DNA of 21,951 nucleotides from Myxococcota bacterium (lineage in GTDB: Bacteria; Myxococcota_C; UBA6777), in NCBI GenBank assembly GCA_023150835.1, contig JAKLKB010000121.1:1-21951 (forward strand). The letters run 5' to 3'. Below are positions 1-21,951 of the stretch, piece by piece (positions within the stretch are counted from its first letter, which is position 1; each line of letters starts with the position of its first letter). Made by a program: the position numbers and the translations under genes. A model generated the notes under the pieces. It saw nothing but the letters and a program-made list of their open reading frames with translations, ran no database searches and was not told where the DNA came from.

Positions 1-153
1 AAAGTACGGAAAGTACGGAAAGTACGGAAAGTACGGAAAGTACGGAAAGTACGGAAAGTACGGAAAGTACGGAAAGTACGGAAAGTACGGAAAGTACGGA
101 AAGTACGGAAAGTACGGAAAGTACGGAAAGTACGGAAAGCACGGAAAGCACGG
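1..153. repeat. 9-bp tandem repeat array (AAAGTACGG)n
   Basis: Seventeen contiguous copies of a 9-bp unit fill the left edge. Fifteen are perfect AAAGTACGG and the last two are AAAGCACGG. The array touches the window edge, so its true length is unknown. Each unit contains the palindrome GTAC. The near-perfect identity, with variants only at the right end, suggests recent expansion by slippage. It lies upstream of a glutathione S-transferase gene, and I see no coding role for it. Confidence 0.95.
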
Positions 154-3101: not shown

Positions 3102-3158
3102 TACGAAATCTGTCCGTAAAATAAGTGAAAAAGTAGGGGCAGCCCCCCGTGACTGCCC
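3101..3158. repeat. dispersed ~60-bp repeat, copy 1 (left of GH44 gene)
   Basis: Block 3101-3117 (ATACGAAATCTGTCCGT) followed by block 3133-3158, which begins GTAGGGGCAGCCCCCC, reappears in reverse complement at 5403-5462 with the same block order and nearly the same spacing. The second block matches at 24 of 26 positions. The two copies bracket the GH44 gene as an inverted pair. No transposase is present, so it may be a MITE or REP-like element. Confidence 0.75.
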
Positions 3159-3337
3159 AACCACAAGGCACCCATAGCGGATCGCACCAACCCTTTGCTT
3201 CTCTCGAAGATCGTATAAGACCGATACATCGGCCCCACCGCGAAACGAAAACAACGGCCCTTCTTGGCACAACACACCAAGCGAACTATCGTCACGCCTG
3301 CATGATGCTCACAGACAGATCGAGGAAAGGACACACC

Positions 3338-5297: not shown

Positions 5298-5371
5298 CGA
5301 CGGGGGTTGGGATGGTTTTTGTGGGGTGTTGCCCCGTCATACGATCTCCGCGTAAGGTATGATCGCATGAT

Positions 5372-5428
5372 GTAGGGGCGGTTCGCGAACCGCCCGATTC
5401 TTGGGCAGCCACGGGGGGTTGCCCCTAC
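5372..5428. repeat. inverted repeat with palindromic core
   Basis: GTAGGGGC (5372-5379) and GCCCCTAC (5421-5428) are perfect inverted 8-mers bounding a 57-bp segment. That segment also contains the palindrome CGGTTCGCGAACCG (5379-5392). The right half overlaps the dispersed repeat copy at 5403-5462. It could form a cruciform or an RNA hairpin; its function is unknown. Confidence 0.7.
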
Positions 5429-5462
5429 CTTTTTACGATCACACAACGGGCGGATTTCGTAT
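5403..5462. repeat. dispersed ~60-bp repeat, copy 2 (right of GH44 gene, inverted)
   Basis: This is the reverse complement of the repeat at 3101-3158. Block 5403-5428 corresponds to the GTAGGGGC block (24/26 identical) and block 5446-5462 corresponds to ATACGAAATCYGYCCGT. With copy 1 it frames the GH44 gene in inverted orientation. Confidence 0.75.
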
Positions 5463-5507
5463 AACCTACAAATCATCGGGACTTTTGGAGGGTGGGATGG
5501 TTTTTGT

Positions 5508-5554
5508 GGGGTTTTACCCCACGCCCCACAAGGGAGCGCGGCTCCCTTGACCCC
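5508..5554 (-). repeat. two-hairpin repeat, copy A
   Basis: This holds two adjacent hairpins: GGGGT-TTT-ACCCC (5508-5520) and AAGGGAGC-GCG-GCTCCCTT (5530-5548), ending in GACCCC. Read on the minus strand it aligns along its whole length with 20955-21001. The stem positions that differ between the copies are paired in both copies (see findings). It also lies downstream of the membrane-protein gene on that strand, but it has no T-run to make it a standard terminator. Confidence 0.75.
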
Positions 5555-5623
5555 GTATTGGCGGAGCGAATCGTCGTTTTTCAAACCAACGGCGGCTCCG
5601 CTTGAGGCAGCGCGAACACGGGG
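5551..5623. repeat. nested inverted repeat
   Basis: Outer arms CCCCGT (5551-5556) and ACGGGG (5618-5623) enclose inner arms GCGGAGC (5561-5567) and GCTCCGC (5595-5601). The element abuts the two-hairpin repeat and may be part of the same intergenic unit. I see no gene in 5249-5655. Confidence 0.55.
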
Positions 5624-5655
5624 GGTTTTGTCAACAGCGTCGCTCCGAAAAGGGC

Positions 5656-6192
5656 TTAACGAGAAGAGGCGGGTGGATGAGGTGGAGTGGATGGGGTAGA
5701 TGGAGTGGATGGAGTGGATGGAGTGGATGGAGTGGATGACCATCCTACGTACACAGCACCGACCACCAAAAGAACCAGACTCGCGATCCAAACATACACT
5801 GCCGGCCCAAAAGAAACGGGTCCGTAATAGCTTGTGGCTGCTTCATTTTTTGGGATACGTTGGTTCACCAGCGCAAATGTATGAAACGAGATCCCGACGC
5901 CCACCAAGCCCAAGATCGCCGCCAACAACCAGCGGCGGAAAAACAAAGACAGCATCGCAAACCCGTAAAAGACATTTGCAAACCAACCGAACTGCCCCAC
6001 AAAAGAACCCATCCATCCGAACCCCAAGAGCAACCCGCCAAAAAAGACTTCGGGCCGTTTCTCCGCGAACGTGAGGGCGGGAAGCGAACAAGCCAAGACA
6101 AACAACGCAAGGCTCGCCCAGACGACGGTTCGGTGGGGTGTGCTTGGTTTATTTGGGGCGGGGGAATGGCTTTGCATAGGTTGGGTTTGCAT
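5656..6192 (-). CDS. small integral membrane protein with (STP)n C-terminal tail
   Basis: A 178-aa protein of unknown function with four or five hydrophobic segments (about 23-43, 49-66, 70-86, 88-108 and 131-151). A hydrophilic N-terminus precedes them and residues 152-178 form a Ser-Thr-Pro repeat tail ending PPHPPASSR. The ATG at 6192 has GAAAGGA about 8 nt upstream. It lies 60 nt downstream of brxL on the same strand and no clear hairpin terminator separates them, so read-through from the BREX operon is possible. I do not know it as a BREX component. The tail is encoded by a 9-bp tandem repeat, so its length may vary between strains. Confidence 0.7.
   Translation of the reverse strand: MQTQPMQSHSPAPNKPSTPHRTVVWASLALFVLACSLPALTFAEKRPEVFFGGLLLGFGWMGSFVGQFGWFANVFYGFAMLSLFFRRWLLAAILGLVGVGISFHTFALVNQRIPKNEAATSYYGPVSFGPAVYVWIASLVLLVVGAVYVGWSSTPSTPSTPSTPSTPSTPPHPPASSR
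5683..5736. repeat. in-frame 9-bp tandem repeat (TGGAGTGGA)n
   Basis: Six 9-bp units lie within the 3' end of the membrane-protein gene: five perfect TGGAGTGGA and one variant TGGGGTAGA (5692-5700). On the coding strand each unit encodes one Ser-Thr-Pro triplet. Copy-number change would lengthen or shorten the tail without a frameshift. Confidence 0.9.
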
Positions 6193-6252: not shown

Positions 6253-8298
6253 TCACTCCGCGATGGCTTTTAACAAGGCATCTCTCGCATCCGAATAAAA
6301 CTGGATATCGATCTTTGTCGCCATCTCGTCGGAAAGGTCGAACAGTTGCCGCCGACAGGAGACTGGCATCAATAGGGCTGTGGCTCCTTTCTCCACCGCG
6401 ATCTCCGCGAGCGTCACAGGCTGATGGATCGGCTCCATCGAACCACCCAGATTCATCTCGCCCACGAGGATTAAGCCACCCTTCACACTTTTTTTCAACA
6501 ACGCTGTACACAACGCCAGAAGCGCTGCAACTCCCACCTTGGCACCAGACTTGGACGCGTCAAAAGCCCGAAGCTGTACCGTAAATTCGTGCTGGCGCGG
6601 ATCTTTGTCTCCCACCAATTGTTTTGCGCGGGCATACAGATTCTGCTCTGCGTAGCTTATGCTCTCCTTAAAAGCCGGTGGAATCGGCTTGTTCAAGATC
6701 TTAACACCTGCGCCCGGGCCTTCGTTGACCTCGATGCGGTAGAGTCCGGCATGTTCTTCGCCACCCCCCGGCGAAAGTGTCCACACCTGACCGGGTTCCA
6801 ATGGATCGCTCCCAATACTGTTTTCGCTTTGTAATTCAGGTGTCGAAACAAATTTTTCCACACCATCCGCCCCCATCACATAACTAAAGTGCGTGTTGCG
6901 AAACTCCGCAGCACCGATGCGTTTCTGCTGCTCTTTGACCCTCCGACGAGACTCCATCCCAATACGAACAGCCCATTCGAGATCTTCGTCCTGCACCTCC
7001 CCACCTCCCGGATACAATAGCTTCAACAAACCACTCACCGTTTTGTTCACAGCATTTGTATCACGACCAGAAAGAGCACCTCCAAAAAACACGCGATTTT
7101 GAAGTACACTTACACGACTTTGATTACGAAGTTGGCTCCAACACTCTGATAAAAAATCACTCACCAAACCAAAATGTGACGTCAACAAATCTCTGCTAAT
7201 CTTGGGCACATCCCAGCCCGGCAAAAAGGCATGGATTCGATCCATAAATGCCGTATCGTCCTTCATCTCCGATGGCATCGGGCCGAAAAGATGCCCTATT
7301 CTTTGTTGGTGTTCCACATCCACTTCAAAATTGCCGACAAGCACGATACTTCCATCCGCACGAATGCTTTCTTTCCCTCGGCTAAACTCTCCCGACTCCA
7401 TGTAGCCCTTCATAATATTTACGCCGTCTTTTTGATCGAAAGAAACGCCTGAAACTTCATCAAAACAAACCACGTCGTATTGGCAAACCAAACCACGCTG
7501 GCCTGTTGCATTGTTCACAAACATCCGAGCAACAGTCGCTTTTCCTCCAGATATCAAGTGCGAATAAGGAGATATCTGTTGAAAAAGATGACTTTTCCCT
7601 GTCCCTCTTGGCCCCAATTCAACGAGGTTGTAATTCCGCTCCACAAAAGGAACCATCCGCAAAAGCAACGCATCTCGTTGTCGCTCAGACAATATCGTCG
7701 GCTCTATCCCAACAGATCGCAATAAGAAATCTTTCCATTCCGCTGTGGTAAATGCTTTTCGAGCCTTTTCCAACACATCCAATACATCCCGCCGAGACAG
7801 TTGGATCTCTCTCAAAGATTCGACACCAAAGGGTCTTCCTCGGCTTTCCTGTGCAATCGAAGCATCATAACAAAGTCGGATCTCGGCGTAAAAACCACCC
7901 GTAAGCATCCGCTCGTGTTCATTGACCAACGAGGGAGCGATTCGCACATCGTTCAAACGTAGGCTTGGCAAAGTCGCGATGTACGAATCTGTCCTTGCAT
8001 CCAAACGGGCCGTGATCAGATCAATGACTTTGACCTCGCCATTTTCTCGCGCACGTGCCTTAAAGAGTTCTTCTTCCCCCGCCTTGACGGTTCGCGATTT
8101 GAGCTGCCGTTGAACCACCTCCAAGCCTTCGTCGATCTCGTCTTGTTGAATGCTCGCACAATAACGCCCCAACAAAAATTCGACCACATAGGTTGGCACA
8201 GGAAACTGGCGGCTAAACGTCCGAACAAGATCTTTCCGCACCAAGTACCCCTCCAGAAAGGAGGCCGCTTTTCTGTCGATGTCATCCAGCTCGATCAT
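6253..8298 (-). CDS. brxL: BREX-1 system protein BrxL (AAA+ / Lon-like)
   Basis: The last BREX gene, 681 aa. It has an N-terminal BrxL-specific region (1-200), an AAA+ ATPase core with Walker A GPRGTGKS (229-236) and Walker B VVCFDEV (276-282), and a C-terminal Lon-protease-like domain (about 540-681: LRAFDASKSGAKVGVAALLALCTALLKKSVKGG, GEMNLGGSMEPI, ALLMPVSCRRQL). BrxL of other type 1 systems is a DNA-binding ring ATPase needed for phage restriction but not for host methylation. By visual alignment to Lon, the catalytic Ser position is Lys587 and the Lys position is Val628, so proteolysis looks unlikely. The start overlaps the pglZ stop (ATGA), preceded by an excellent GGAGGTGAGAG ribosome-binding site. 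It is full length with no visible lesion. Confidence 0.95.
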   Translation of the reverse strand: MIELDDIDRKAASFLEGYLVRKDLVRTFSRQFPVPTYVVEFLLGRYCASIQQDEIDEGLEVVQRQLKSRTVKAGEEELFKARARENGEVKVIDLITARLDARTDSYIATLPSLRLNDVRIAPSLVNEHERMLTGGFYAEIRLCYDASIAQESRGRPFGVESLREIQLSRRDVLDVLEKARKAFTTAEWKDFLLRSVGIEPTILSERQRDALLLRMVPFVERNYNLVELGPRGTGKSHLFQQISPYSHLISGGKATVARMFVNNATGQRGLVCQYDVVCFDEVSGVSFDQKDGVNIMKGYMESGEFSRGKESIRADGSIVLVGNFEVDVEHQQRIGHLFGPMPSEMKDDTAFMDRIHAFLPGWDVPKISRDLLTSHFGLVSDFLSECWSQLRNQSRVSVLQNRVFFGGALSGRDTNAVNKTVSGLLKLLYPGGGEVQDEDLEWAVRIGMESRRRVKEQQKRIGAAEFRNTHFSYVMGADGVEKFVSTPELQSENSIGSDPLEPGQVWTLSPGGGEEHAGLYRIEVNEGPGAGVKILNKPIPPAFKESISYAEQNLYARAKQLVGDKDPRQHEFTVQLRAFDASKSGAKVGVAALLALCTALLKKSVKGGLILVGEMNLGGSMEPIHQPVTLAEIAVEKGATALLMPVSCRRQLFDLSDEMATKIDIQFYSDARDALLKAIAE

Positions 8299-10646
8299 CT
8301 CTCACCTCCACCCACGCTCGATGCGACCTGCGCAACAAGCACTCCCTTTGCATCCAATAGAACGACCTCAACGTGTCGCCCTTCCAGATCTTCATCCTCC
8401 ACAACCACAGACGCCTTCCCATCCGCGTTGGGTGGCTTCTTGGCTCCGACGATTACGCTCGACGATGGAGATCCTGCGTGGCTGCGGATATCCAAGAATA
8501 AATCTTTATACTCACCTTCGACAGTGACGTTACATCGTAAGTTTTTCCATTGTACCTCGCGAAATCGAACGAATGTCTTTGTTTGCATAGACGTACCGTG
8601 TGTAACCGTCAAATGCGATAGCAAGCATTCTTGTAAGCTTAAGCCACCATGCGCATATTCTTCACCTTTTTTAAAGCAGCTTACCCCATCCGCAAGCGCA
8701 AAAAACTGGTGCGGATCCCAAAACCAAGGATAAAGCCGCTCTTTTGTTGAACTTCCCGACTTCAAAGAAGCACAGCGCCCCCATTTGTTTTCCGTGAGGA
8801 CGCTCGGTAGCTCTATCTTCGGCAAGCCCCCCGGCAACAAAAGCCACCCGTGATCCGTGACGACTCGAACACGCTTCCAACCCGCAGCCAAAAGCTCGGC
8901 GATGCGCTCCCTGATCTCTTGCACCAGCCCCCCAACGTGCTTGGCGAGTTTCCAACCACGTTCATGTCCCTCGTGATCGATATCCCCCACTTCGCACCAT
9001 GCCATCCCTTGACCATCGCCGCTCGCTGTGCGCGCAATGATCGACCATCCCGCGTCCGTCAACAGCTTTTTGAGAGGCTGACCACCTTTCAATGACTGGC
9101 CTGTCTGCGCGACAACAGGCTCAAAGTCGGGCGTGTTCTCGCGCCCTTGGATCTTGTCCCGAACGGGGCTGACCGCCGCTTTCCCTGTCGCGGTGACGCT
9201 CGGTAAAGCTGCCCAAACCAACTCTTCCGAAACATCGAACCCATCGGCCTGTAATGATTCAACCAAACGTTTTCCTACATCAAAACGCAGCCCATCCACA
9301 AACAACACACAGTCGCCGTCGCAGTATTCAATGGCTCTTTTTGCCTGATCCCCTGCACCTAAATAAGAAGATTGTTCAACGATTTTTTGAAGATAACGAG
9401 CAGACTCTTCCAACCAAGGCAGGTACACAGAGCGAATCGCGGCCTTCACCGCGTCAACGTCAGCAGCGCGCTCGACGTGCGCCAAGGCCCGAAGCATCGC
9501 GTCATCGACCCGCCATCCAAAAGCGCGATAGCCCGCGACGATATCGTCGATGGTTCCTGCTGCAAGGCTTGTTTTTGTCAGCTCAGCGATGGCCGCCAGA
9601 TGTTCCAATGCACAAGCCAACGGCGCTTCCTCAATCTCGGCCCATACCCAAGAGCGCCTGCGTCCGTGGGTGTTCTCCTGATCGAGGATCTGCTGTCGTG
9701 CACGGTGCGGCGGTTCATTCGCAAGCCGCAACAAATCCTGACGCAGACTGTTCTCTTGTTCTTTGTTCCACTGCGGCCAACCTTCGACAACCTTTTCATC
9801 TGAAAAAAGGTCGACTTTCGGCATCAGACAATTTCCAATCAATTTGGGGATATTTAGATAACGCTGGGGTGCTTCGCGGTAGCGTTCCCACACCGCTTGC
9901 CACGGCCCCTCGTGCTTTGCAAGTTGGGTGCATCCAGATAAAATGCCCTTGCTATCGGGATCAAAACCAAAATGGGACTGACAGAGTCCGCCAAAAGCCT
10001 TCCATTCGTTGTCATCGCGGCTTCCTTTCCATGCATCACCGAGATCAAGCCATTGCAGCACGTCACGCATCAAGTCCCCACCTGCCAGCAACGTGTTGAA
10101 ATCGTCCTTGTCAAGGCGCTTTCCTTTCAACCGCGAGATCTCTTCGTCCAAAACTCGGTGAACTGCAAGCCGCATCGCGCTCTTGGTGTCATTGTCTTGG
10201 GCCACGTCCAACCCAAGCCCACCGTCCCCGGATTTGAGATACGCCAAGATCGTCCAGTCTTTCGAATTAATCTGAGACCAGATCACGCCTCGGTATTGAA
10301 GCTCCGCAAGTGGTTTCAAGTGCGCTGGGCAAGTCTCGATGGCTCTAAGATCTTGGCGGCTGACGCCGGGTAGGTAAAAGATCGGAGGCCGTTCTTTGGG
10401 CCAAGATATCTCTGGAATCCGAGCGGCAACAACACAACGCAACCAGATCGCAGGCCCTTTGCGCTGTTCTGGCGCATAGTCCCCCAAAACCATCAATTCG
10501 GGAATTTGGCTCTGTAAGACAGGGATGACAGGCTCCCATTGACGGTCGTGATCCGTCCAAAGAATACAAGCCGGAGCCACCTGCACTTCTGGATTGAAGA
10601 CGGCAGCACCACGAATCGCTTCAACGAGGCTATCCATCACCCTCAC
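8295..10646 (-). CDS. pglZ: BREX-1 system phosphatase PglZ, type B
   Basis: A 783-aa protein with the alkaline-phosphatase-superfamily PglZ core. The N-terminal region reads VAPACILWTDHDRQWEPVIPVL (23-44), as in the shorter type B PglZ proteins. The metal-site motifs are CVLFVDGLRFDVGKRL (446-461), GDIDHEGHERG (554-564) and VRVVTDHGW (593-601). PglZ is essential for BREX methylation and defence, probably with PglX and BrxB; its in vivo substrate is not established. The GTG start overlaps the upstream gene's TGA stop (GTGA) and has GGGGAG 7 nt before it; an ATG three codons later (10637) is the alternative. It overlaps brxL by 4 nt. Confidence 0.94.
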   Translation of the reverse strand: MRVMDSLVEAIRGAAVFNPEVQVAPACILWTDHDRQWEPVIPVLQSQIPELMVLGDYAPEQRKGPAIWLRCVVAARIPEISWPKERPPIFYLPGVSRQDLRAIETCPAHLKPLAELQYRGVIWSQINSKDWTILAYLKSGDGGLGLDVAQDNDTKSAMRLAVHRVLDEEISRLKGKRLDKDDFNTLLAGGDLMRDVLQWLDLGDAWKGSRDDNEWKAFGGLCQSHFGFDPDSKGILSGCTQLAKHEGPWQAVWERYREAPQRYLNIPKLIGNCLMPKVDLFSDEKVVEGWPQWNKEQENSLRQDLLRLANEPPHRARQQILDQENTHGRRRSWVWAEIEEAPLACALEHLAAIAELTKTSLAAGTIDDIVAGYRAFGWRVDDAMLRALAHVERAADVDAVKAAIRSVYLPWLEESARYLQKIVEQSSYLGAGDQAKRAIEYCDGDCVLFVDGLRFDVGKRLVESLQADGFDVSEELVWAALPSVTATGKAAVSPVRDKIQGRENTPDFEPVVAQTGQSLKGGQPLKKLLTDAGWSIIARTASGDGQGMAWCEVGDIDHEGHERGWKLAKHVGGLVQEIRERIAELLAAGWKRVRVVTDHGWLLLPGGLPKIELPSVLTENKWGRCASLKSGSSTKERLYPWFWDPHQFFALADGVSCFKKGEEYAHGGLSLQECLLSHLTVTHGTSMQTKTFVRFREVQWKNLRCNVTVEGEYKDLFLDIRSHAGSPSSSVIVGAKKPPNADGKASVVVEDEDLEGRHVEVVLLDAKGVLVAQVASSVGGGER

Positions 10647-12439
10647 GCGCTCACTCCCCTCAAATGAAACAATTGGATGGCTTGCTCGACGAGCTTTTGT
10701 GTTCTCTCGTCGATCTGCGCTGCGCTCCAGTCTGTCGCATTGGCCAGATCTTCATTGAGCCGAAGCCCGTTTTTGTAGCCGATCGGAAGACCTTGTTTGT
10801 CTGTACGATCACGTTTTTCTTCAAAGTCTTTGTTTCCAAGCGCACTGTTGAAACCAGAAATCGTTAAATTACCTAATTTGTGAACGTGTGTTTGTTGGAT
10901 CTCTTTTGCTTTTTTTTCATCACCATCGGCTATCCGATGAATCCACGACTGGGGTATGTTTTCTCCTTGCGGGAAGATATGTTCGATTGTCCACACAAAC
11001 AACTTTCCGTCCATCCGCCACAGATCCACCCACGTTTCTCGCGTCATGCCTTGCTCTGCCAACGCACACAACACAAAGCGCGCAACCCATGCATTTTCCT
11101 CGTAGATCGGCCCTTCCAATTTTTGCCGAAAGAGTTCGTCCGAGGCGGAAACGGAAGCCAATTGTTGCTCGATAAACGATATCAGCGCGCTTCCTTGCAA
11201 GTCGCCGATCTTGTCCAACATGGACATAAAAAAACGGGTCAGATCCCGTGTTGGCGGTGTATCGGTCAGATTGCGTCGAACAAAAAAACGCACCAAAGCA
11301 TTCGTGATCTCCGCAATCTCTGTACTGCCCACCTGCAACTTTTCTCTGTGAACCAACAAGAACAACAGCAACAAATACGCTGGAGCGGCTTGGATGCGAT
11401 CAAGGTCTTTGAGCGGCTTTTCCAAAACAGCAAGTTCTTCGTCGTGCGTGCGCGTAAGCAACAACGAGTACAAACGACCCGCCGCACAAAGCCGCAACAA
11501 GCTCTCTTTCGCGTTTTCATGAATGAGTTTTTCGTAGATCTGAATCAGGTTTGAGCGCGTTGCAATAGGAACATGGATCACAGATTTGAGTTCATTTTTG
11601 AAAGCGTTGTAGTACTGCCGAAAAAATCGCTCTTGGATTGCGTAATCATCCCCCAAATCCGCAAGCAATTTGCTCCAAAAACCGAAATAATGGTCGACTT
11701 GTCCCGGCTCAACGGACTCCAATCTCGCCAAAAGTTTGTTTTTGATCAAGTCGATGGCGGTCAGCGGCATCCCACGATTGTTCAAAGACTCAAACAGGGT
11801 ATAAGCATCCGAATGGCTAAACACCTCAATCTTTACAAGACAAGCGTGGTTGATCTTTCCCAAAAAGTCGATCACGTTCTTGATCGACGCTCCTTGTTCT
11901 TGAAGCATCTGATGCAGGCGTTCTTGAAAATACCGATATGCACGAAAGAGCTTGCGGCGCGAGGCGTACGCTGGCAGAGCAAAGGGATCCATGACACCGC
12001 TATCGCCCAAGACAGCGCGATAATCGTCGTGGTTGTTATTTTGGATCTGAGGAACCAAACGCATCTGTTGCGGGCTTTCGCGCAAAATCAATTTACGTTT
12101 TAAGTTCATCAATTCCCAACGCTGATAGTCATCCAAAGCAGATTCTTGGCTTTTGAGAACTTGATACAGGGCCGCGAACAACAACGAAAGTGTTGTCATC
12201 CGTTGTTGACCATCCACGATCTCCAGCTTTTGCACAGCGAGTGCGTCCGTTGTTTGATTGATGCAGATGATCGATCCGAGAAAATAACCCGGATCATTTT
12301 CCAACGCATCGTCAAACAACGCTTCCCATTGTGTCTTGCCCCATGTGTATTCGCGTTGGTAGCGCGGGATCGCATACACGATCCTCGCTTCGATGTCGAA
12401 AAGCTGTGAGATCGGATAATTGTTGACGGAGCGGATCAT
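10643..12439 (-). CDS. DUF262/DUF1524 GmrSD-like putative type IV restriction enzyme (BrxU-like)
   Basis: A 598-aa single-chain protein. The N-terminal DUF262 (GmrS-like, ParB-fold NTPase) half shows IPRYQREYTW (24-33), LEIVDGQQRMTTLSLL (72-87) and TLFESLNNRGMPLTAIDLIKNKLL (214-237). The C-terminal DUF1524 HNH-type nuclease half shows TIEHIFPQ (484-491) and HKLGNLTISGFNSALGNKDFEEKRD (520-544), with the expected H487, N531, N536 and K542. GmrSD and BrxU enzymes cleave phage DNA carrying modified cytosines in an NTP-stimulated way. It sits between pglX and pglZ, the position of brxU in the pEFER BREX locus, with 4-nt overlaps on both sides (ATGA and GTGA) and its own GGGAGG site. Assignment to the BrxU subfamily is inference; the DUF262+DUF1524 call is firm. 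Confidence 0.88.
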   Translation of the reverse strand: MIRSVNNYPISQLFDIEARIVYAIPRYQREYTWGKTQWEALFDDALENDPGYFLGSIICINQTTDALAVQKLEIVDGQQRMTTLSLLFAALYQVLKSQESALDDYQRWELMNLKRKLILRESPQQMRLVPQIQNNNHDDYRAVLGDSGVMDPFALPAYASRRKLFRAYRYFQERLHQMLQEQGASIKNVIDFLGKINHACLVKIEVFSHSDAYTLFESLNNRGMPLTAIDLIKNKLLARLESVEPGQVDHYFGFWSKLLADLGDDYAIQERFFRQYYNAFKNELKSVIHVPIATRSNLIQIYEKLIHENAKESLLRLCAAGRLYSLLLTRTHDEELAVLEKPLKDLDRIQAAPAYLLLLFLLVHREKLQVGSTEIAEITNALVRFFVRRNLTDTPPTRDLTRFFMSMLDKIGDLQGSALISFIEQQLASVSASDELFRQKLEGPIYEENAWVARFVLCALAEQGMTRETWVDLWRMDGKLFVWTIEHIFPQGENIPQSWIHRIADGDEKKAKEIQQTHVHKLGNLTISGFNSALGNKDFEEKRDRTDKQGLPIGYKNGLRLNEDLANATDWSAAQIDERTQKLVEQAIQLFHLRGVSA

Positions 12440-15400
12440 CTGTTTGCCTCCCGTGCTGCGCGTTTTTCAGCCAAAGTGAGATGGTGATCGTTGATGCGGT
12501 CGCCGTTGAAGACATGGAACCAAGGGGCTGATTCCACATCTTTTCCTCGGTCTTTGTCCCATTTGATATTGGGTTTGTCGCGTAAGATGCCTGCGCCTTT
12601 TTTACCCACGTCAGGAACCGCCAAGAACGGGCGGATATTGAGCCGAACCCCATCATTGAGATCGGGTTCCCAACCCACAGGCTGTTTTTCCAATGGTTTC
12701 CAGCGCACAAAGATATCGTAGGGGGCTTCTCCCTCCAAGATCCATTCGAGCTTTTTCTTGAGAGATTCTGCCGCAGCAAGGCGCTCTTGCGCACCATCCA
12801 CGCCTCCTGCGATCTCTTGTTTTTGACGGCTGATCCAGTCGCCCAAGTAAGTGTAGATCAAGGTTTCGAGCAGTTTGGTGTCGAGTTTGTGGTAGTTGAC
12901 CAACGCAGCGAAGCCGTCGCGCAGACCGTCCCAGATGTGCCAGACGAAGGGCCGCTGTTGGAACACCTTGCAATGTTGTGTAAAGAATTTTTCCCGCAAC
13001 CACGTATCCAATGTTTTTCCCGCATGCTCGGCGCTTTTCAGCAACGCAGCAAGGGTATCATTAGACCAAGCAGCCCCGTACGCCGCCGCCAAGAGATTGA
13101 GCAAACGATCCGACGCGGACGCTTCGCCACGCAACGCCGGAATGCAGACGATGCCGCTTTTTTCTGCGTAAGACTGCAACGCCTCGCATCGTCTGACCCA
13201 TTCTCGTTGTTCGTCCGCCAATTCCATCTGCGGATCCAACTCGGCAGGCCAACGATAACCAAGCAGACGAGCCACCGCCACTTGCAACACCGTGTCATCG
13301 CTACGCAACGGCCCCTCCACCGTCCACTTCTCCTCTTCGTCCCATACCACCGAGCCGCATGGATGACCGTGAAAAATCCATTGCGTCGGATCATCCGTGT
13401 ACGGCTTCGGAAGACCCTTGGGGTATTTTTCTTCCGCAACTTGCGTCCAGTGTTCGAGATCAAACGGCACTTTGACCAGTGTCGCATTCGTCACATTCAA
13501 CTTTTGATCAATGCGCCGCACCGCTTCGTTGTAGGCGGGCGAAGCACAAAAGCACCAAATGGCAGGAAGATGGGCGAAATTATGAGGTATGATCGGCGTG
13601 CAACTGATATCAAACTTTGAACCAGAGTAAAGGGTCGCTGGCAAAGCTCGCATCATACTTACGACGACACCATGTTTTCCCCAAATACTTTCTCCTTTTA
13701 CATAAGCGTTTGGATTTTCTCGATGACAGATTCCATCATTAGCCCAATAAAAAGTATTTTGCTTACCGCCGAAATGCTCTGTTTGTTCGTGTGTGGCTTG
13801 AAAGAAATGCCAAATCGAGAAATCGATAATTTCCCAAAAATGAAAACGAAAATGAAACGAATCAGCCCCATGCATACCGTTCAAAGCAACAGCATACTTG
13901 CTTAACAATTCGCCCGAGACTTCCTCGAAGGCTATCCGAGCATCAGGGTTTTGTAGTTGGTTTGCTTGGACGACGCTTTGGATATCGGCGTTCCGCAAGA
14001 GTGCGGCTTTTTCGGAGGCGGTGCGTTGTTCGGAGACATCGAGGCCACGGAGTAAGTGATGTGTTTCGGTGCTGCGAAAGAGTGCGCCCAAGTCTTTCGT
14101 TGCGCTGCCTCGGCTGATGGTGAGCAATTGGACATTGAAGTCCCACATGGGGGTTTGAAACGCCTGTGGCCCCAAGCGGGCGATCAGATGCCATGTATGA
14201 TCTTTCAAGAGTATTTCGCGGAATTTTTTATAGGAGGTCAGGAAGAGCCAATTTTGAGGGAGGACGATGCTGGAGGTGCCGCCTTCATCGCAGAGTTGGA
14301 GGCAACGAGCGAGGAAGACGGTGGCGAGGTCGTTCTTTGCGGCGGGATAGCGCCGTTCGGAAAAGTCGCGGAGTCGTTCGCTTTGTTTGCCGCGTGCGAG
14401 ATAGGGTACGTTGGTGAAGATCCAATGATAACGCCCACTAAGCAAGGTGGACGCTTTGGCCAATCCTCGGGCAACAACGGCGGCTTCTTGTTGTTCTTCG
14501 GTGGGTTCTTGTTGTAAGGCTTGTTCTAAGACACGGGCGACTTCGTTCCAACGGATGAATTGCTCGCTCATGCCTTCTTTTTTGGGATCGAGCAAACTGC
14601 CGAGAATCGGGGCATCTTGGAAAGCGTCGTGCAGCCATTCAAGGGCGATGGCGAGGTTTTTTTTATGGAGGCCAAGTTGTTTCCACTCTTCCTTGGCAAC
14701 GCTGATCGAGAGGCCAGAGCAGGCGATGTGCAATTCTGGCAGCGTGCGATAGCCGCCAGCGTTGGGGAAATTCCACGCAGCGAGGGCGAGGGCAAAGGCG
14801 GCGAGTTCGACGCAACGCTGATCGAGTTCGAGGCCGTGAATGTTTTCCCTAAGTACCGCATCGACGGCCTGTTTGGCAGAGAGGCCATCGCAGGCCATAC
14901 GGATCGGAACCAACATCAGAAAAGCCGCGACAAGAAAGTGTCCCGAACCACAGCAAGGATCGAGGGTTTTGAGTTCGGAAAGCTTTGTAGGCCAAGCATC
15001 GAAGGTTCCAGCGGCAGGTGTCCATGTGCCATCTTCTTGTTGCACAAAGCGCAAGAAGTCGAGCGGGACACCCGAGATCGAGGCTTTTTGGCGTAGTTCT
15101 TCTTCACTTTGGGCATTTTTGAGATCTTCTTGGGTCAGTCTTCGTACAGCCCACCAAGCCCCAAGCGAGTTATCGAGCAAGAAGTTGACCATATAAGGTT
15201 CTGTAAAAAGCTGTGTGACGGCGGGTAATTCTCGTGCGCCGATCTTGACTTCGGAGGCATTGACTTCGTCTTTTTTCTTGGCTTGCCAGTATTGATAGAC
15301 CCAACCGAGACTATCGGAGGCGACAAAGACTTCGGAGGGCAGGTCGGCCACGAAGCGTTCTAGTTTTTGCTGGTGTTCTGGCGGCAAGGTGAGCAAGAAG

Positions 15401-15858
15401 ACGGGCGAATCCAGCCGAAAGATCTGCGGCAACATACGAGCGGCAAAGCGAGCAGCCAGTTCCCAACCATTGCTCGCGCCTTCTTCGGGGGCGAGTTCTT
15501 CGCACTCTTCGAGCGTGACGGCCACAGGCCCGTCAGGGTCGGGATACATCAGCAGTCCGTTTTCAGCCAGAAAGCGGGCAAAGAGCATCCGATGCCAATG
15601 TTCGTAGGCGACTTCTTCGATCAAGCGGTCGATCTCTTGGGTGTCGTTTTTGGCGTGGCGCAGATCCCCCAATTGTCGCCCGTGTATCCGCAGTTTACGG
15701 CGAAGATCTCTTTCTTTCTCGTCGAGATGGTCAAAGGGGGCGGCTTCTCCGACACCGATCTGTTCGAGCGCAGCGCGTGCGGCGGCTTCGGCGGTCTCAC
15801 GTGCGCTCTTGACAGTACGTTCCAGTTGGCTTCTCAGGCTCTTGTCTAATGGCTGCAT
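12436..15858 (-). CDS. pglX: BREX-1 adenine-specific DNA methyltransferase PglX
   Basis: A 1140-aa N6-adenine methyltransferase that marks host DNA at a short non-palindromic site. The SAM-binding motif I is LDPCCGSGHFLVAAF (299-313). The catalytic motif IV is TNVPYLARGKQ (NVPY at 483-486), where many family members have NPPY. The long C-terminal part holds the target-recognition and spacer regions, ending in EKPNIKWDKDRG-type sequence near the C-terminus (DKPNIKWDKDRGKD). I chose the ATG at 15858 (MQPLDKSLRSQLERTV), preceded by AAAGGAACGG. An in-frame start at 15957 would overlap the brxC end and add low-complexity residues. It begins 40 nt after brxC stops and overlaps the DUF262 gene by 4 nt. 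Confidence 0.94.
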   Translation of the reverse strand: MQPLDKSLRSQLERTVKSARETAEAAARAALEQIGVGEAAPFDHLDEKERDLRRKLRIHGRQLGDLRHAKNDTQEIDRLIEEVAYEHWHRMLFARFLAENGLLMYPDPDGPVAVTLEECEELAPEEGASNGWELAARFAARMLPQIFRLDSPVFLLTLPPEHQQKLERFVADLPSEVFVASDSLGWVYQYWQAKKKDEVNASEVKIGARELPAVTQLFTEPYMVNFLLDNSLGAWWAVRRLTQEDLKNAQSEEELRQKASISGVPLDFLRFVQQEDGTWTPAAGTFDAWPTKLSELKTLDPCCGSGHFLVAAFLMLVPIRMACDGLSAKQAVDAVLRENIHGLELDQRCVELAAFALALAAWNFPNAGGYRTLPELHIACSGLSISVAKEEWKQLGLHKKNLAIALEWLHDAFQDAPILGSLLDPKKEGMSEQFIRWNEVARVLEQALQQEPTEEQQEAAVVARGLAKASTLLSGRYHWIFTNVPYLARGKQSERLRDFSERRYPAAKNDLATVFLARCLQLCDEGGTSSIVLPQNWLFLTSYKKFREILLKDHTWHLIARLGPQAFQTPMWDFNVQLLTISRGSATKDLGALFRSTETHHLLRGLDVSEQRTASEKAALLRNADIQSVVQANQLQNPDARIAFEEVSGELLSKYAVALNGMHGADSFHFRFHFWEIIDFSIWHFFQATHEQTEHFGGKQNTFYWANDGICHRENPNAYVKGESIWGKHGVVVSMMRALPATLYSGSKFDISCTPIIPHNFAHLPAIWCFCASPAYNEAVRRIDQKLNVTNATLVKVPFDLEHWTQVAEEKYPKGLPKPYTDDPTQWIFHGHPCGSVVWDEEEKWTVEGPLRSDDTVLQVAVARLLGYRWPAELDPQMELADEQREWVRRCEALQSYAEKSGIVCIPALRGEASASDRLLNLLAAAYGAAWSNDTLAALLKSAEHAGKTLDTWLREKFFTQHCKVFQQRPFVWHIWDGLRDGFAALVNYHKLDTKLLETLIYTYLGDWISRQKQEIAGGVDGAQERLAAAESLKKKLEWILEGEAPYDIFVRWKPLEKQPVGWEPDLNDGVRLNIRPFLAVPDVGKKGAGILRDKPNIKWDKDRGKDVESAPWFHVFNGDRINDHHLTLAEKRAAREANR

Positions 15859-15898
15859 CCGTCCGTTCCTTTGGGCTGCTTGGATCGCATGAGGGTTA

Positions 15899-18800
15899 TT
15901 AGATTGCGATAGGCCCCTTCTGTAGGGCGGTTTTAAGCTGTTGTTTGGCTTCATCAAGCCAAGCGTCGATCTCCGCCTCGCTCTTTAAAGTACGACGTGG
16001 AAGCTGGACAAACTGCGTTTGGGGTTCACACATCTTCGCAGCATGTTGAAGAACTTTGTCGAAGCGATCAGAGATGGCTGCGATGCGGTCGGAAAAGATC
16101 GAAAGAGAGCAATGGTCGAGGGTGTGTAGAACATCTTCGGTCGATTGTACGGCGACTTTGGGACGTGCGGATGCTTGGAGGGACTGCGCGGAAAGCAGAT
16201 GTTGTTGTTGTTCGGGTTGTAATTGCGACCAATGAGTGTCGCCCGCCAAGCGTTGGAGGCCCTGCGCGTAACGCTCGCCGTACTCGCCATCAAAGCGATT
16301 GAGTTGTTGGCGTAGCAATTGGGTGAGGTTGGCGACAAGCGGAGCGACGGGGTCGGGTTCATCAAGAAGCTGTCGTTGTTGTTGGATCGTGTGAGATTGG
16401 GCGATCAGTTCCGCTGCATCGGGGAGTGTGGAAGCGTGTTTCGCGAGACGTTGAAGGATGAGCCAGTGGGGCCAGCGTTTGTCGATGCGCTCGGCCAGAT
16501 CGCGCCAGAGATCGAGAAGGTCGGTGAATTCATCACGCCGCTCGTACAGAGCGAAAAGCTGTTCGTTGCCCGAGGTACGGCGGAGGTCGATCAGGGACGA
16601 AGTCTCGGGTTTCGGCGGCTTGGGAGCTTCACCGCCCGCTTGTTCAGCGAGTTCCAACATTTGCTGCAAAAAGATCTTGGCGCACGCGGACTCTTCTCCT
16701 GGCTTGACGGTGACACCGGCTTTTTGCAGCAGTTTGCGGACGTGGAGAAGTTCGCGGGCTGTGATCGTCACAGATTCTGTTTTGAACGTCGCTTTGCCGA
16801 TACTCTTGCGATCAAGGTCTTTTGGGTCAGGGATTTGGCCGCGCTCTTCTTGTGCGCGGATCAACCCCGCGACAAGAAGCACTTGCAAGCCACCATCCAC
16901 AGCGTCACGCGACCATCCGAAGGGCGGAGCTTCAAAGGAAGCGCGGATCTCTGCACCTGTCTTGCCACCTGCAAGAGCGTCGAGAAGGGCCTTGCATACG
17001 GGGTTTTTGTCGGGTTCACCATCATCCCCCACAGCTTTGAGTGCATCGGGTGCGCCTTTGTGGGCTTTTTCATAGACTTTGGCCCAACCGCTGTGATCGG
17101 CGATATGAAATCGCGGATACAGCCGTTGCAAGGCGTTTTCAGAGGCTTCACGTAGAATTTCTTCAAGAGTCTTACCGAAGATCTCGTTGCCACCGCCTTG
17201 AAAGACTTTGGCGTTGGAGAAGGTTTCTTCGAGGAGTTCTTGGATCCTGTGGTCGGCTGTTTGCTGAATGGTTTGCATCGCTGACCGCGCATCGGTGATC
17301 TCTTGTGGGTCGGAGTGAGAAGAGGCGCTACGTTTTTCCAACGTAGCGGAGGCGGCTTTGTACTCGATCAGGTGGTGGCGAAGGTCGTCAGCCGAGCGTT
17401 TGGGGAGAAATACGAAAACAACGGGGGATGTATGTCCAGCCTGTCTTGCGTCTGCTTGGACGGATTTTTCATCTGCTCCCCATCCGTCACGAATCCAGAG
17501 ATGGATCTCGTTTGTGTTGGGGGGTTTGGAGCCATAGAAAGGGGAGATTTTGCGGAGAACTTTGGAATCGCCTTGAAGGAGGGATATCTTGCGTAGAATC
17601 TCAGCGAATTTCTTTTTGATGCGTTCGTCGCGTTCGGCTTCGATGTGGTGGGTATCGTTGGACAACACAGAATACTGATGAAGAAAGTCGTCGTTCCAAG
17701 CCGTGCTTTCTTCGGTTTGGATGCGGTACTCATCTTTGACCTTGATCAATAGATCGCATTTGTCGAGGAGGCTCGGTAGTTTGCTGCGTAAGCTGCTGCT
17801 ACCGCGAGCGAGATCTTTCACCAAGAGATCCGCAAGAGCATCCGTGGTGGCGCGGATACCGAGTTCCTTGTTTTGATGGTTGACTTTGTTGATGAGGAAG
17901 ACCAAGGCACAGGCGCGTGCCATCAGTCGTTCTTCGTCTGTGCCCTGATACCAAGTGAGTGTTTTTTCGTACACTTTTTTCGGAAGAATATGTGATTGGA
18001 GCAGCTTTTCAGCGGAGTCGAAGTAAAGATAATCGGTAGGAACAATATGACCCAACGGTTCGTTCAAGTTGGTTTGGATAGCCTTGTGAACCATACTGAG
18101 TTGATTGCGAAGTTGGCTATCCGTTCCGGTCCGATCAAGAGCGCGAAGGGTGTTTTCCCAAAAACGACGACGAACAGGAAGAAGAGGATAGTCTTGTGGG
18201 AAATGGAGTATATCTTTTTGATGATGTCCGATGGTTGTGTCTGCGAGGTGTCGAGAGATCTCGCCGAGATTTGTTTGTAAGAGCAGATCAATCGGTGCTT
18301 TTGCTTCTGGTTTTTTGGCCAGAATCACTTTACGAATCACAGCATCCACGTCGGCATCGGAGAGTTCGACACGGACAGTAAACCTGCCCATCAGGTGTTT
18401 GAGGTTTGCTGTTCCCGAGATCGCAGATTGGCCGGTTCCAATAAAAATCAATCGCCCCCCCAAACCCTTACAGCAGGCTTCGGTGGCTTCTCGAACAGCA
18501 TCTGCCCGTTCAAAATTGTCTCCGATGAACTGTTGAATCTCGTCAAGGATCACCAAGGTCAAAGGAAATGAACCCATTTTTGTCAAAGCTTGACGAATGA
18601 TTTTAAGCATTTCATCGCTAGAGATATCAGGGACATAAGGAAAAAGATGCGTCATCGTGTCAGTACAGGACGCAGAGGAGGAAAACAGCGTTGGTTTGGC
18701 CTGCGCGAGAGCATCGTGGAGTCTTTCGGCGACGTAGAAGTTGTCGAGTTCCTCTTCCCAAGAGATACCGTCTTGCTCGACAAAGCCGCGAACTTGCTCG

Positions 18801-19336
18801 TAAATACCTTGTTCTTTGAGCCAGAGGACAAAGCGAGCAAGATGATATTGTTCGGGCAGATCGGCAGACTTCAGAATAATACCTACAAGAGCAAGTCGTA
18901 CACTAGCACTCGAACCAGAACCCAACGTGCCCGAGGCTGCGTGCAAGCCGCCGTATCGTTTGGCTCGTGTGTTCAACTCTTTGAAATAGTCGCGTATGGT
19001 TTGGGGTAGGTTGGCGATACCGCGAGCGGTGGCTCCATCCTCAAAGGCCGTATCGAGCCAAAGCGCACGGAGCATCTTGACGAGGTGTGATTTGCCCGAT
19101 CCGTAAAAGCCACTAATCCAAACTCCGGGCTGTTGGGATTGATCGATATTTTTCAAGTAGGTGTCGAGGATGTGCGCCATCCCTTTTTCGTACTGCCCAT
19201 CGCACACAAAGGTTTCAAGCTCATAGCGAAGCACGGAGAGGGCTTGATTTGTTTTTTCATCGTTGACGGTTGCGACACCTTCGTTCACCAATTTTCGAGT
19301 AGACGGGTCTTTTTGGTAAACATCTCGATTCTTCAT
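15899..19336 (-). CDS. brxC: BREX-1 system P-loop ATPase BrxC
   Basis: An 1145-aa ATPase (DUF499/PglY-like, ORC/STAND-related) thought to be a large scaffold or motor that couples the BREX methyltransferase to defence. It begins MKNRDVYQKDPSTRKLVNEGVATV, the usual BrxC N-terminus. Walker A is GFYGSGKSHLVK (76-87) and Walker B is LTLVILDEIQQF (259-270). The C-terminal half is rich in charged helices. The ATG at 19336 has AAAAAGGGGCGAG upstream; an in-frame start at 19399 would run into brxB. It starts 17 nt after the brxB stop. Intact. Confidence 0.95.
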   Translation of the reverse strand: MKNRDVYQKDPSTRKLVNEGVATVNDEKTNQALSVLRYELETFVCDGQYEKGMAHILDTYLKNIDQSQQPGVWISGFYGSGKSHLVKMLRALWLDTAFEDGATARGIANLPQTIRDYFKELNTRAKRYGGLHAASGTLGSGSSASVRLALVGIILKSADLPEQYHLARFVLWLKEQGIYEQVRGFVEQDGISWEEELDNFYVAERLHDALAQAKPTLFSSSASCTDTMTHLFPYVPDISSDEMLKIIRQALTKMGSFPLTLVILDEIQQFIGDNFERADAVREATEACCKGLGGRLIFIGTGQSAISGTANLKHLMGRFTVRVELSDADVDAVIRKVILAKKPEAKAPIDLLLQTNLGEISRHLADTTIGHHQKDILHFPQDYPLLPVRRRFWENTLRALDRTGTDSQLRNQLSMVHKAIQTNLNEPLGHIVPTDYLYFDSAEKLLQSHILPKKVYEKTLTWYQGTDEERLMARACALVFLINKVNHQNKELGIRATTDALADLLVKDLARGSSSLRSKLPSLLDKCDLLIKVKDEYRIQTEESTAWNDDFLHQYSVLSNDTHHIEAERDERIKKKFAEILRKISLLQGDSKVLRKISPFYGSKPPNTNEIHLWIRDGWGADEKSVQADARQAGHTSPVVFVFLPKRSADDLRHHLIEYKAASATLEKRSASSHSDPQEITDARSAMQTIQQTADHRIQELLEETFSNAKVFQGGGNEIFGKTLEEILREASENALQRLYPRFHIADHSGWAKVYEKAHKGAPDALKAVGDDGEPDKNPVCKALLDALAGGKTGAEIRASFEAPPFGWSRDAVDGGLQVLLVAGLIRAQEERGQIPDPKDLDRKSIGKATFKTESVTITARELLHVRKLLQKAGVTVKPGEESACAKIFLQQMLELAEQAGGEAPKPPKPETSSLIDLRRTSGNEQLFALYERRDEFTDLLDLWRDLAERIDKRWPHWLILQRLAKHASTLPDAAELIAQSHTIQQQRQLLDEPDPVAPLVANLTQLLRQQLNRFDGEYGERYAQGLQRLAGDTHWSQLQPEQQQHLLSAQSLQASARPKVAVQSTEDVLHTLDHCSLSIFSDRIAAISDRFDKVLQHAAKMCEPQTQFVQLPRRTLKSEAEIDAWLDEAKQQLKTALQKGPIAI

Positions 19337-19353
19337 GTTCGTCTCGCCCCTTT

Positions 19354-19905
19354 TTAAGCATCGCTGTCTGCAGAGATCGGCACAGCGAGGTAATTCCACC
19401 CGTCGTAGCCGTCTAAAAGTCGATAGTTATTGTTTTCATAGCTTCCCGGGAAAAAGACCGCCAACCGTCCTTTGACCCTTGGGGCGAATTGGTCGACGAC
19501 CTCTTTTACTTTCAACAAGCCAAAAAGGGATCCGACGCCTTTGAGGGCCACGACAGAGTTTGTGTCGATTTCTTTTTCTTGAAGAAATGTAGAGAAGTCT
19601 TCTGTAAGGAAGGAAAGGTATTTCGGCAATAGTGTGGACAGATGATGAGGTTTTTGGAAATAGCTTTTTGCGTACCGCTGCGCGGCCATCCATGCAGCAA
19701 AGGTATCGGTGAGGTCGTAAACAATCCAGCCGTGTCCTGCTTGTTGTGTGGTCAGTTCGAACTCGTCGAGATTGGCTCGCAAGGCTCGTTCATCGTTTTG
19801 GTCGTAGATGCAGAAGATCACCCGTTGGGCGGATGCGATATCATTGCGCCAAGGCACAGAAATAAATTGACCGTAAGAGCGCAACAATCGCTTAATTTTG
19901 CTCAC
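19354..19905 (-). CDS. brxB: BREX protein BrxB (DUF1788)
   Basis: A 183-aa DUF1788 protein, a small core BREX component required for methylation and defence in studied type 1 systems. Typical features are the basic N-terminus with VPWRNDIASAQRVIFCIYDQNDERALRANLDEF (17-49), GHGWIVYDLTDTFAAWMAAQ (57-76), and the C-terminal RLAVFFPGSYENNNYRLLDGYDGWNYLAVPI (147-177). It starts with GTG inside the end of brxA (14-nt overlap), indicating translational coupling. Confidence 0.93.
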   Translation of the reverse strand: MSKIKRLLRSYGQFISVPWRNDIASAQRVIFCIYDQNDERALRANLDEFELTTQQAGHGWIVYDLTDTFAAWMAAQRYAKSYFQKPHHLSTLLPKYLSFLTEDFSTFLQEKEIDTNSVVALKGVGSLFGLLKVKEVVDQFAPRVKGRLAVFFPGSYENNNYRLLDGYDGWNYLAVPISADSDA

Positions 19906-20689
19906 GAAGCCACTCCATTTCTTCTTGGGTGATCAAGTTTGGGAAGAGGACTTCGACAACGTCGCCAAGATGTTTGAGAACGAGCCAGCCTTTGGCTGCG
20001 GCTTGTTGTGCGAGTTCGAGGGCTTGATGGGGTTCGCAATCAAGCAGCTTCATGTATTCTGTTTGGAAAAGAGTTTGTCCACGTGCGCCTGCTAAGTAGC
20101 CGATGAGTAAAGCGTAAGCAACGCTTGCAGACGTTGGATGGACACGCGTTCGAACTTTTCTGGTTTTTCCGCAGAGATGACCGGATTTTGTCCATGTTGC
20201 GGCGATATTCCGAGCTGTGGATTGGAGGGTGACTTTGCTGAATCGACCGGGTTTTTGTTTGTCAACAAATTCTTCAAAGGATTCGGATATAACGATGGTT
20301 CCTTCGGGGATGGCTAACAGAGGCGGTGCGGTGGAACGAAACAAGGGATCTCGGACATAAGTGCAAAGCTGCGCCAACAAAGGTTGTGCAGCGTGATCCC
20401 GTTTCCAAAAGTAGACAAGAGATCGAAAGAGAACCTTGGCAGGATCAAGAGAATAAAGCTCGACGAGATAGCGACGAGAGAGAAAGCGGGTTTTTTCGGA
20501 GCGCTTTCCCAAGCAGTTTTGTTCAGTGATGGCTTGCAAGTAGTGGCATTGTTCAGCATCAGGGCGGTCTACGTAGGCCAGCAAGCAGCGAAGTTCGTCG
20601 AGCATCATCGTACGAGAATTGTGCGGGCCACCCCGTTCAAAGCGGAATCCGAATTGTGTTAGGGGGTGGTTCTTTTCCGTGGTGCTCAC
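19892..20689 (-). CDS. brxA: BREX protein BrxA (DUF1819, putative inner membrane protein family)
   Basis: A 265-aa DUF1819 protein, the first gene of the operon. BrxA proteins are small DNA-binding, NusB-like helical proteins; despite an older membrane annotation there is no clear transmembrane helix here. Recognisable parts are RTMMLDELRCLLAYV, RRYLVELYSLDPAKVLFRSLVYFW, PEGTIVISESFEEFVDKQKPGRFSKVTLQSTARNIAATWTKSGHLCGK (central) and the C-terminal EALVLKHLGDVVEVLFPN-like segment (WLVLKHLGDVVEVLFPN). I prefer the GTG at 20689 (VSTTEKNHPLTQFGFRFERGG) with GGGAGAG 9 nt upstream; a TTG at 20707 is possible but lacks a site. Confidence 0.92.
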   Translation of the reverse strand: MSTTEKNHPLTQFGFRFERGGPHNSRTMMLDELRCLLAYVDRPDAEQCHYLQAITEQNCLGKRSEKTRFLSRRYLVELYSLDPAKVLFRSLVYFWKRDHAAQPLLAQLCTYVRDPLFRSTAPPLLAIPEGTIVISESFEEFVDKQKPGRFSKVTLQSTARNIAATWTKSGHLCGKTRKVRTRVHPTSASVAYALLIGYLAGARGQTLFQTEYMKLLDCEPHQALELAQQAAAKGWLVLKHLGDVVEVLFPNLITQEEMEWLREQN

Positions 20690-20851
20690 TTTGCGAGACT
20701 CTCCCAAAGATGTCTGATCGGTTCGATGAAAACCGAAAAACCAACGCCTTCGCCGAGATCTATTTCATGAACCAAAGTGTAGTTTGTTGTCAAGGTCGAA
20801 TAAGATGATTTGTCAAAGAACACAACAGAGAGTAGAGAAATTTTGATCTTT

Positions 20852-20881: not shown

Positions 20882-20954
20882 CCCCCCTCGTGTTTGGAGT
20901 ATTTCAAGCGACAGAGCCGTCTGTGAAAGAAACCTGTGTTCTCTTCGCCAACAT

Positions 20955-21001
20955 GGGGTCAAGGGGACGCAGTTCCCTTGCGGGGCGTGGGGCAGCGCCC
21001 C
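20955..21001 (+). repeat. two-hairpin repeat, copy B
   Basis: This has hairpin AAGGGGAC-GCA-GTTCCCTT (20961-20979), a GCGGGGCGT-type linker, then hairpin GGGGC-AGC-GCCCC (20989-21001). It aligns with the reverse complement of 5508-5554. The two copies therefore lie on either side of the BREX operon in opposite orientation. Apart from this and the promoter, 20690-21095 holds nothing I recognise as a gene. Confidence 0.75.
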
Positions 21002-21095
21002 ATCAAATCAACGACATCGTGTTGAAACATTGCGGAAGCAAGGGAGTGATTTTTGTGGGAGGATTGTGTGAGGGAGGGGGTGGAAGACAGAAACG

Positions 21096-21134
21096 AAAAA
21101 AGGCCGCAACATCGGGTGTGATGTGCGACCTTTT
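21096..21134 (-). terminator. strong Rho-independent terminator downstream of the tRNA-Asn fragment
   Basis: Read on the minus strand, a 15-bp stem with one bulge (arms 21134-21120 and 21113-21098, 6-nt loop) ends in six T residues. It begins 4 nt after the last base of the tRNA fragment, so it looks like the native terminator of that tRNA. It may also work on the plus strand, where the stem ends in TTTT. Confidence 0.8.
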
Positions 21135-21138
21135 GAAG

Positions 21139-21180
21139 CTCCCCAACGCGGACTCGAACCACGGACCCGGTGATTAACAG
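21139..21180 (-). pseudogene. 3' fragment of a tRNA-Asn(GTT) gene, possible att site
   Basis: On the minus strand the fragment starts with the anticodon loop CTGTTAA (anticodon GTT), then the 3' anticodon stem TCACC, variable loop GGGTC, T arm CGTGG-TTCGAGT-CCGCG (5-bp stem with one wobble), acceptor strand TTGGGGA and discriminator G. CCA is not encoded. The 5' half (acceptor, D arm, GGTGA stem arm) is missing: directly upstream is an unrelated palindrome. It cannot be a functional tRNA. The break at the anticodon loop matches where many tyrosine integrases cross over. Confidence 0.85.
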
Positions 21181-21200
21181 AAATGACATCGATGTCATTT
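21181..21200. repeat. perfect 20-bp palindrome AAATGACATCGATGTCATTT
   Basis: The 20-bp sequence equals its own reverse complement, centred on ATCGAT. It starts at the base next to the tRNA fragment break. It could be a recombinase or dimeric regulator binding site, or an operator left from a toxin-antitoxin locus. It is not a known dif sequence. Confidence 0.9.
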
Positions 21201-21234: not shown

Positions 21235-21390
21235 ATGATTTTGTTAAACTTTATGGTATTTTATGAATTTAAAAAGTCGCTCAACCCCAACAAAGCTCGT
21301 ATCAACTATCCAAGGAAAGAGGGGTACATTCAGCGCATGATGACCCGCGCTGAGTATGATCAAGGCCATCGGAAGGACGACGATGTTTGA
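21235..21390 (+). pseudogene. higB toxin remnant (RelE/HigB-like C-terminal part)
   Basis: A 51-codon open frame whose end reads ARINYPRKEGYIQRMMTRAEYDQGHRKDDD. This resembles the C-terminus of HigB-type mRNA interferases (INY..., then a THAEYDKG-like motif followed by WK-D). The N-terminal half of the toxin is missing, and a few residues seem lost between NK and INY. Its stop overlaps the start of the antitoxin-like frame (ATGTTTGA), which is the usual higB-higA coupling. It is too short to be an active toxin. Recognition rests on short motifs. Confidence 0.5.
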
Positions 21391-21733
21391 GAGCAAAAAA
21401 CGACGCAGTTACGAGGACGTTGCAAAGACACGCTTGCTTCGCGTGATCCACACAGAAGCGCAATACAAAGCTGTGCAAAAAGAGATCACCCGCTTGTTCC
21501 AACAACAACCTTTAAGCAATCTGGAAGAGGACTACCTCGATACGTTGGCCTTGTTGGTGGAGCGATACGAGGAAGAACATCACCCGATAGACACAACCCA
21601 CATCTCCCCTTTGGAATCCCTCGAAAACTTGCTGAATCGAGAAATTCCAAGCCATCGAATCAAGAAATTCCAAGCAATGCGGCGAGTTTTGCGCGAACAT
21701 CCTCGACGATCTCATCGTCCGCTTTTTCGATAA
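21383..21733 (+). pseudogene. truncated higA-like antitoxin lacking its HTH domain
   Basis: The 116-codon frame begins MFESKKRRSYEDVAKTRLLRVIHTEAQYKAVQKEI, with GGAAGGA upstream of the ATG. Residues about 18-75 match the N-terminus of HigA antitoxins (HTEAQYKAVQKEITRLF, EDYLDTLALLVERYEEEHHPID, PLESLENLLNRE). In intact HigA an XRE-type HTH (RGLTxxDL...) follows at this point. Here the frame instead runs antisense through the end of mazF, giving a basic tail (RRVLREHPRRSHRPLFR). It looks like a fusion junction near 21640-21660 that removed the DNA-binding domain. Confidence 0.65.
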
Positions 21734-21951
21734 AAGAGGCTTGGCGCACTCTCCAGTCGAGACTCTTGACTTGGTCGGAAAGCACGCATCCTGTGGTTTT
21801 CATCCCCGGACTCAGGAGGACAAGGAAATGGCTTCTCGTTTTTTGGCTTGTGATGGGACAAACGATCACAAGGCTGCTGAGTTGGTTGTAGCTGGCGGGA
21901 GACAACACAAGAGCAGGACGACGTTTGGCTTGTTCTCGTCCAGCTTGGGGG
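21660..21951 (-). CDS. mazF: MazF-like type II toxin (endoribonuclease), 5' end outside window
   Basis: Ninety-six codons are visible, entering at the right edge as PQAGREQAKRRPALVLSPASYN, then LVIVCPITSQKTRSHFLVLL, GCVLSDQVKSLDWRVRQASFIEKADDEIVEDVRAKLAALLGIS and a TGA stop. The RRPALVLSP, CPIT and DQVKSLDWR motifs are those of MazF/PemK/ChpB mRNA interferases. About 14 N-terminal residues, and any mazE, lie beyond the window. The gene converges on and overlaps the truncated higA frame. The visible part is intact. Confidence 0.88.
   Translation of the reverse strand, partial: PQAGREQAKRRPALVLSPASYNQLSSLVIVCPITSQKTRSHFLVLLSPGMKTTGCVLSDQVKSLDWRVRQASFIEKADDEIVEDVRAKLAALLGIS

Follow-up and report, generated by a model that had tools for sequence, protein, structure and literature searches.

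Attachment site of a probable integrative element in tRNA-Asn(GTT), beside a BREX operon, in a draft myxococcotal genome

The window analysed here, a stretch of 21,951 bp, is the entire contig C61 of a draft genome (7.56 Mb in 239 contigs). It almost certainly holds the attR of an integrative element, whether genomic island, prophage or ICE, that entered tRNA-Asn(GTT) by a tyrosine-recombinase crossover. Both ends of the insertion were observed, one in the window and the other on contig C59 of the same genome, together with an integrase gene and the empty site in a relative. Features of the window are collected in Table 1.

Table 1. Window features bearing on the tRNA-Asn junction and its surroundings, as interpreted in the text
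Feature	Position	Strand	Evidence or remark
BREX operon: brxA, brxB, brxC, pglX, GmrSD/DUF262 gene, pglZ, brxL	6253..20707	-	
attR core	21088..21180	-	98% identical to attL, C59 6224-6316
Native rho-independent terminator of tRNA-Asn	21095..21134	-	fold; stem base common to G001, unlike C59
tRNA-Asn(GTT) 3' fragment, nt 32-74	21138..21180	-	exact second copy in intact C59 tRNA-Asn
Perfect 20-bp palindrome, first island bases past core	21181..21200	.	unique in genome
higB remnant, C-terminal end only, 45 aa	21253..21390	+	sequence
Candidate integrase arm site, 12-bp AGCTTTGTTGGG	21286..21297	-	inverted copy in other arm, C59 6111-6122
higA-like antitoxin	21383..21733	+	phrog_10398 E 1.9e-11, N-terminal part
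mazF toxin gene, cut by contig end	21660..21951	-	PF02452 E 5.2e-22

Two copies of the tRNA-Asn 3' half and an empty site

The fragment in the window comprises 43 nt of the 74-nt gene; it opens with the first base of the anticodon loop (CTGTTAA) and closes with the 3' end of the acceptor. A prior sequence-only reading had recognized both its identity and the break at the anticodon loop, but had given its size as 42 nt, whereas alignment to the C59 tRNA-Asn gives 43. ARAGORN called no complete tRNA in the window, and an Rfam search of the window returned no match. An intact, 74-nt tRNA-Asn(GTT) was called by ARAGORN on C59 (6274-6347, minus strand). The 36-nt core pattern AACGCG...AACAG, with up to three mismatches allowed, was found at two sites in the 7.56-Mb genome, both of them exact, versus none for the reversed control in the same genome, so that the fragment is not a chance resemblance. 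The genome thus contains an intact tRNA and its cognate 3' fragment, in these two copies only, with no third. The block that the copies have in common extends over 93 bp, and is longer than the fragment because it takes in the terminator, the stem of which begins 3 nt past the 3' end of the fragment (fold z = -5.3; 0 shuffles equally good). Outside this block, window and C59 diverge on both sides.

Four members of the family (G001-G004) were available for comparison, G001 being the one same-genus genome compared. In G001, contig C142 carries the chromosome of C59, an intact tRNA-Asn and the left flank of the window without interruption. The match to C59 runs from 15243 to 6224 at 91-94% identity, barring a 0.24-kb C59 stretch absent from G001, and the match to the window from 21180 to 20636 at 89% over 545 bp; the G001 contig breaks off within the initial codons of brxA. 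Because the site is uninterrupted in G001, the two junctions in the present genome mark where an insertion begins and ends. The first 6223 bp of C59 have no counterpart in G001-G004, two short G001 patches excepted, and the occupied site is known from one genome only. The fragment is in direct-repeat orientation and on the correct side, downstream of the tRNA, the order being deduced from the G001 site; the same G001 contig suggests that C59 and the window lie on one replicon.

Which of the two copies is native can be read from the terminator. The stem has GGTCGC in the window and in G001 versus GGCCGC in C59, and beyond the shared block the G001 match goes on for the window flank only; the window terminator is therefore the host's, and the C59 copy was brought by the element. 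Two positions in the terminator loop vary among the copies, and at one of them the window agrees with C59, not with G001. The sequence-only reading had placed the inserted element to the right of the fragment on the condition that the terminator is the native one, and had anticipated an intact tRNA-Asn(GTT) with the same core near an integrase, as well as empty sites in related genomes. These expectations hold: the left flank of the window is chromosome in G001, where the site is empty, and the tRNA-Asn on C59 has a tyrosine recombinase on its island side.

The crossover falls in the tRNA 3' half, bounded by the stem difference (about 21130) on one side and by 21180 on the other. The anticodon loop is its likely segment, since identity sets in with the first base of that loop; the exact base we infer rather than observe. 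As we picture the event, the attP of the element carried a copy of the tRNA 3' half and terminator, so that integration would have rebuilt a working tRNA-Asn at attL, on C59 by the integrase, and would have displaced the original 3' half, native terminator included, to attR at the far end, in the window.

Could the fragment instead be a decayed tRNA that lost its 5' half by deletion or rearrangement, with no mobile element involved? The side just past the break is indeed a rearranged one, with truncated higB and higA genes and a repeated mazEF. But an intact tRNA-Asn with an adjoining integrase exists, and the flanks that are contiguous in G001 part exactly at the duplicated block, which makes decay a very improbable explanation. 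The simple deletion remnant that the sequence-only reading had named as its refuting case is contradicted by the second core copy together with the G001 empty site.

The two arms of the element

At least 7.0 kb of the island is seen (6.2 kb on C59 and 0.77 kb in the window) and its middle is unassembled; the Islander range is 2-200 kb. C59 and the window would be the two ends of one element across this assembly gap, and a rearrangement may have taken place between them at a later time.

On the C59 arm, a complete tyrosine recombinase of 334 aa (3183-4187, minus strand; PF00589 E 1.5e-22; phrog_216 integrase E 2.7e-26) is encoded 2.0 kb from the intact tRNA-Asn, on the side required for the element. 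Aligned to E. coli XerD (1a0p), it has the catalytic R, K, HxxR, H and Y in register, as would be predicted for an active tyrosine integrase. This enzyme presumably did the integration, and the element may be mobile now or may have been so formerly. Neighbouring genes encode a sigma-like HTH protein, a helicase (phrog_16, E 6.4e-48) and an RHS fragment; C59 begins inside an unrelated gene and has no overlapping contig. XerC/XerD-like integrases of alphaproteobacterial and other plasmids have the same catalytic core and align over nearly the full length at about 28-34% identity, plasmid-borne relatives reaching at most about 34% among the best matches. No close relative of the integrase was found in viral_contigs, in genome_contigs or in the four family members.

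The window arm is short. The higB remnant has a parallel in Pantoea, where a similar short HigB precedes a homologous regulator, and the higA-like gene has a repeated mazEF segment in place of its C-terminal part from 21633 onward. Window 21633-21951 is 98.7% identical to contig C94 1454-1772, where mazEF is complete, and contig C155 (1-264) starts within the same repeat. At least two nearly identical copies of the mazEF segment are present, one of which cuts into higA, and it is evidently here that the window contig broke. We did not take C155 to continue the window, because past the repeat it corresponds to ordinary chromosomal sequence of G001 (93%). C94 itself has a DNA methylase/helicase-like region which, judged from translations, is reminiscent of a plasmid or phage.

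Further repeats were noted in these contigs. Dispersed ones of roughly 60-145 bp occupy window positions 3133-3219, 5338-5466, 5503-5646 and 20905-20992, and also occur on C59 and in G001; the copy at 5338-5466 contains a perfect 20-bp palindrome, GGGCGGTTCGCGAACCGCCC. C155 has repeats of about 125 bp with dozens of matches in G000 and G001, on both strands. There are also 9-bp tandem repeats, which preserve the reading frame and may break assembly: AAAGTACGG x17 at the contig start (window 1-153), TGGAGTGGA x6 at window 5683-5738, and a similar, in-frame array near 1200 on C94.

One 12-bp sequence, AGCTTTGTTGGG, has a single copy in either island arm; the two copies are inverted relative to each other, and each is about 105 bp away from the core. 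Such a match arose in random arms in 1/400 cases under a Markov null and in 7/400 under a real-sequence null, so that the sequence is no more than a candidate arm site.

The palindrome at the break

Directly 5' of the tRNA fragment lies the perfect palindrome AAATGACATCGATGTCATTT, which abuts the first core base and so sits exactly at the break, as the sequence-only reading had said. It is absent from the empty-site locus of G001, and viral_contigs contained no exact copy of it. About 0.02 perfect 20-bp palindromes are expected by chance per window (22,000 x 4^-10); the one other in this window, at 5376-5395, is within a dispersed repeat. The central 18 bp have 36 matches in genome_contigs, several of them in one Chloroflexi MAG and Marinomonas species. 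No tRNA gene was found within 1.5 kb of any of the 36 in the flanking DNA covered, and the matches are probably assorted regulator operators.

One tentative proposal, which we consider rather unlikely, is that the palindrome serves recombination itself, as a site bound by the integrase or an excisionase next to the crossover, rather than being an unrelated operator; this is a sub-reading within the best explanation and not an alternative to the island model. The exact meeting with the core, the single occurrence in the whole genome and a length far beyond chance for one chosen place all speak for it. Against it, core-type integrase sites usually consist of two half-sites flanking a spacer, the half-site of the palindrome is unlike the tRNA side, 0 of the 36 genome_contigs matches are near a tRNA, and the higB remnant has the palindrome 53-72 bp upstream of it, which is the expected place of an autoregulatory operator. 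The narrower notion of a dedicated att-site part that binds a dimer and sets the direction of recombination is more doubtful still. If true, such a palindrome-bearing att site would be a layout unusual for tRNA-targeting tyrosine integrases.

The BREX operon and known islands

The BREX operon is on the chromosomal side of attR, outside this island. In G001, too, brxA adjoins the intact tRNA-Asn, and BREX was therefore there before the island. The converse arrangement, in which BREX came in at tRNA-Asn and has the fragment as its boundary, might be suggested by the distance of about 0.4 kb between BREX and the tRNA fragment and by the absence of brxA homologues from the three other-genus genomes of the family. 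A 3' fragment, however, puts the inserted element on the 5' side of the fragment, which is to the right and away from BREX, and the far end of BREX is without a copy of the tRNA-Asn core. The arrangement in G001, which lacks this island and already has brxA beside an intact tRNA-Asn, led us to reject BREX as the inserted island, a reading to which we give hardly any credence.

Within the operon, the GmrSD/DUF262-type restriction gene (10643-12439) sits between pglX and pglZ. Over 6.4 kb, the BREX region matches G001 contig C46 at 97.8% identity, considerably higher than in the flanks (89-94%). In pglX (12436-15957), a stretch at about 13573-13924 does not align to G001 and is possibly an exchanged target-recognition region.

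The tRNA-Asn island is of a well-known kind and involves no new principle. Among the tRNA/tmRNA islands mapped by Islander, 2083 of 3919 are anticodon-centred (PMC4383910). Like that class, the present element has an intact tDNA and a 3' fragment in direct orientation, a tyrosine integrase, an attP with the tRNA 3' part, and identity from the anticodon loop (PMC4383910). Unlike it, the shared block (93 bp) takes in the tRNA terminator, a perfect 20-bp palindrome abuts the core, and the middle of the island is unassembled. A further parallel is PYG1 of Pyrococcus yayanosii, about 21 kb between a partial and a complete tRNA-Gln, which has likewise a tRNA direct repeat as its borders and complete and partial tRNAs as its ends (PMC9897764); it differs in being archaeal, in its tRNA-Gln target and in its shorter shared block (44 bp versus 93 bp here).

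Insertion into a tRNA gene with a replacement 3' half is a very common integration route of bacterial islands. For a bacterial group that has been poorly sampled, the analysis fixes one end of such an island, the gene that it targeted and a candidate integrase, and it sets the island apart from the adjoining, older BREX defence operon.
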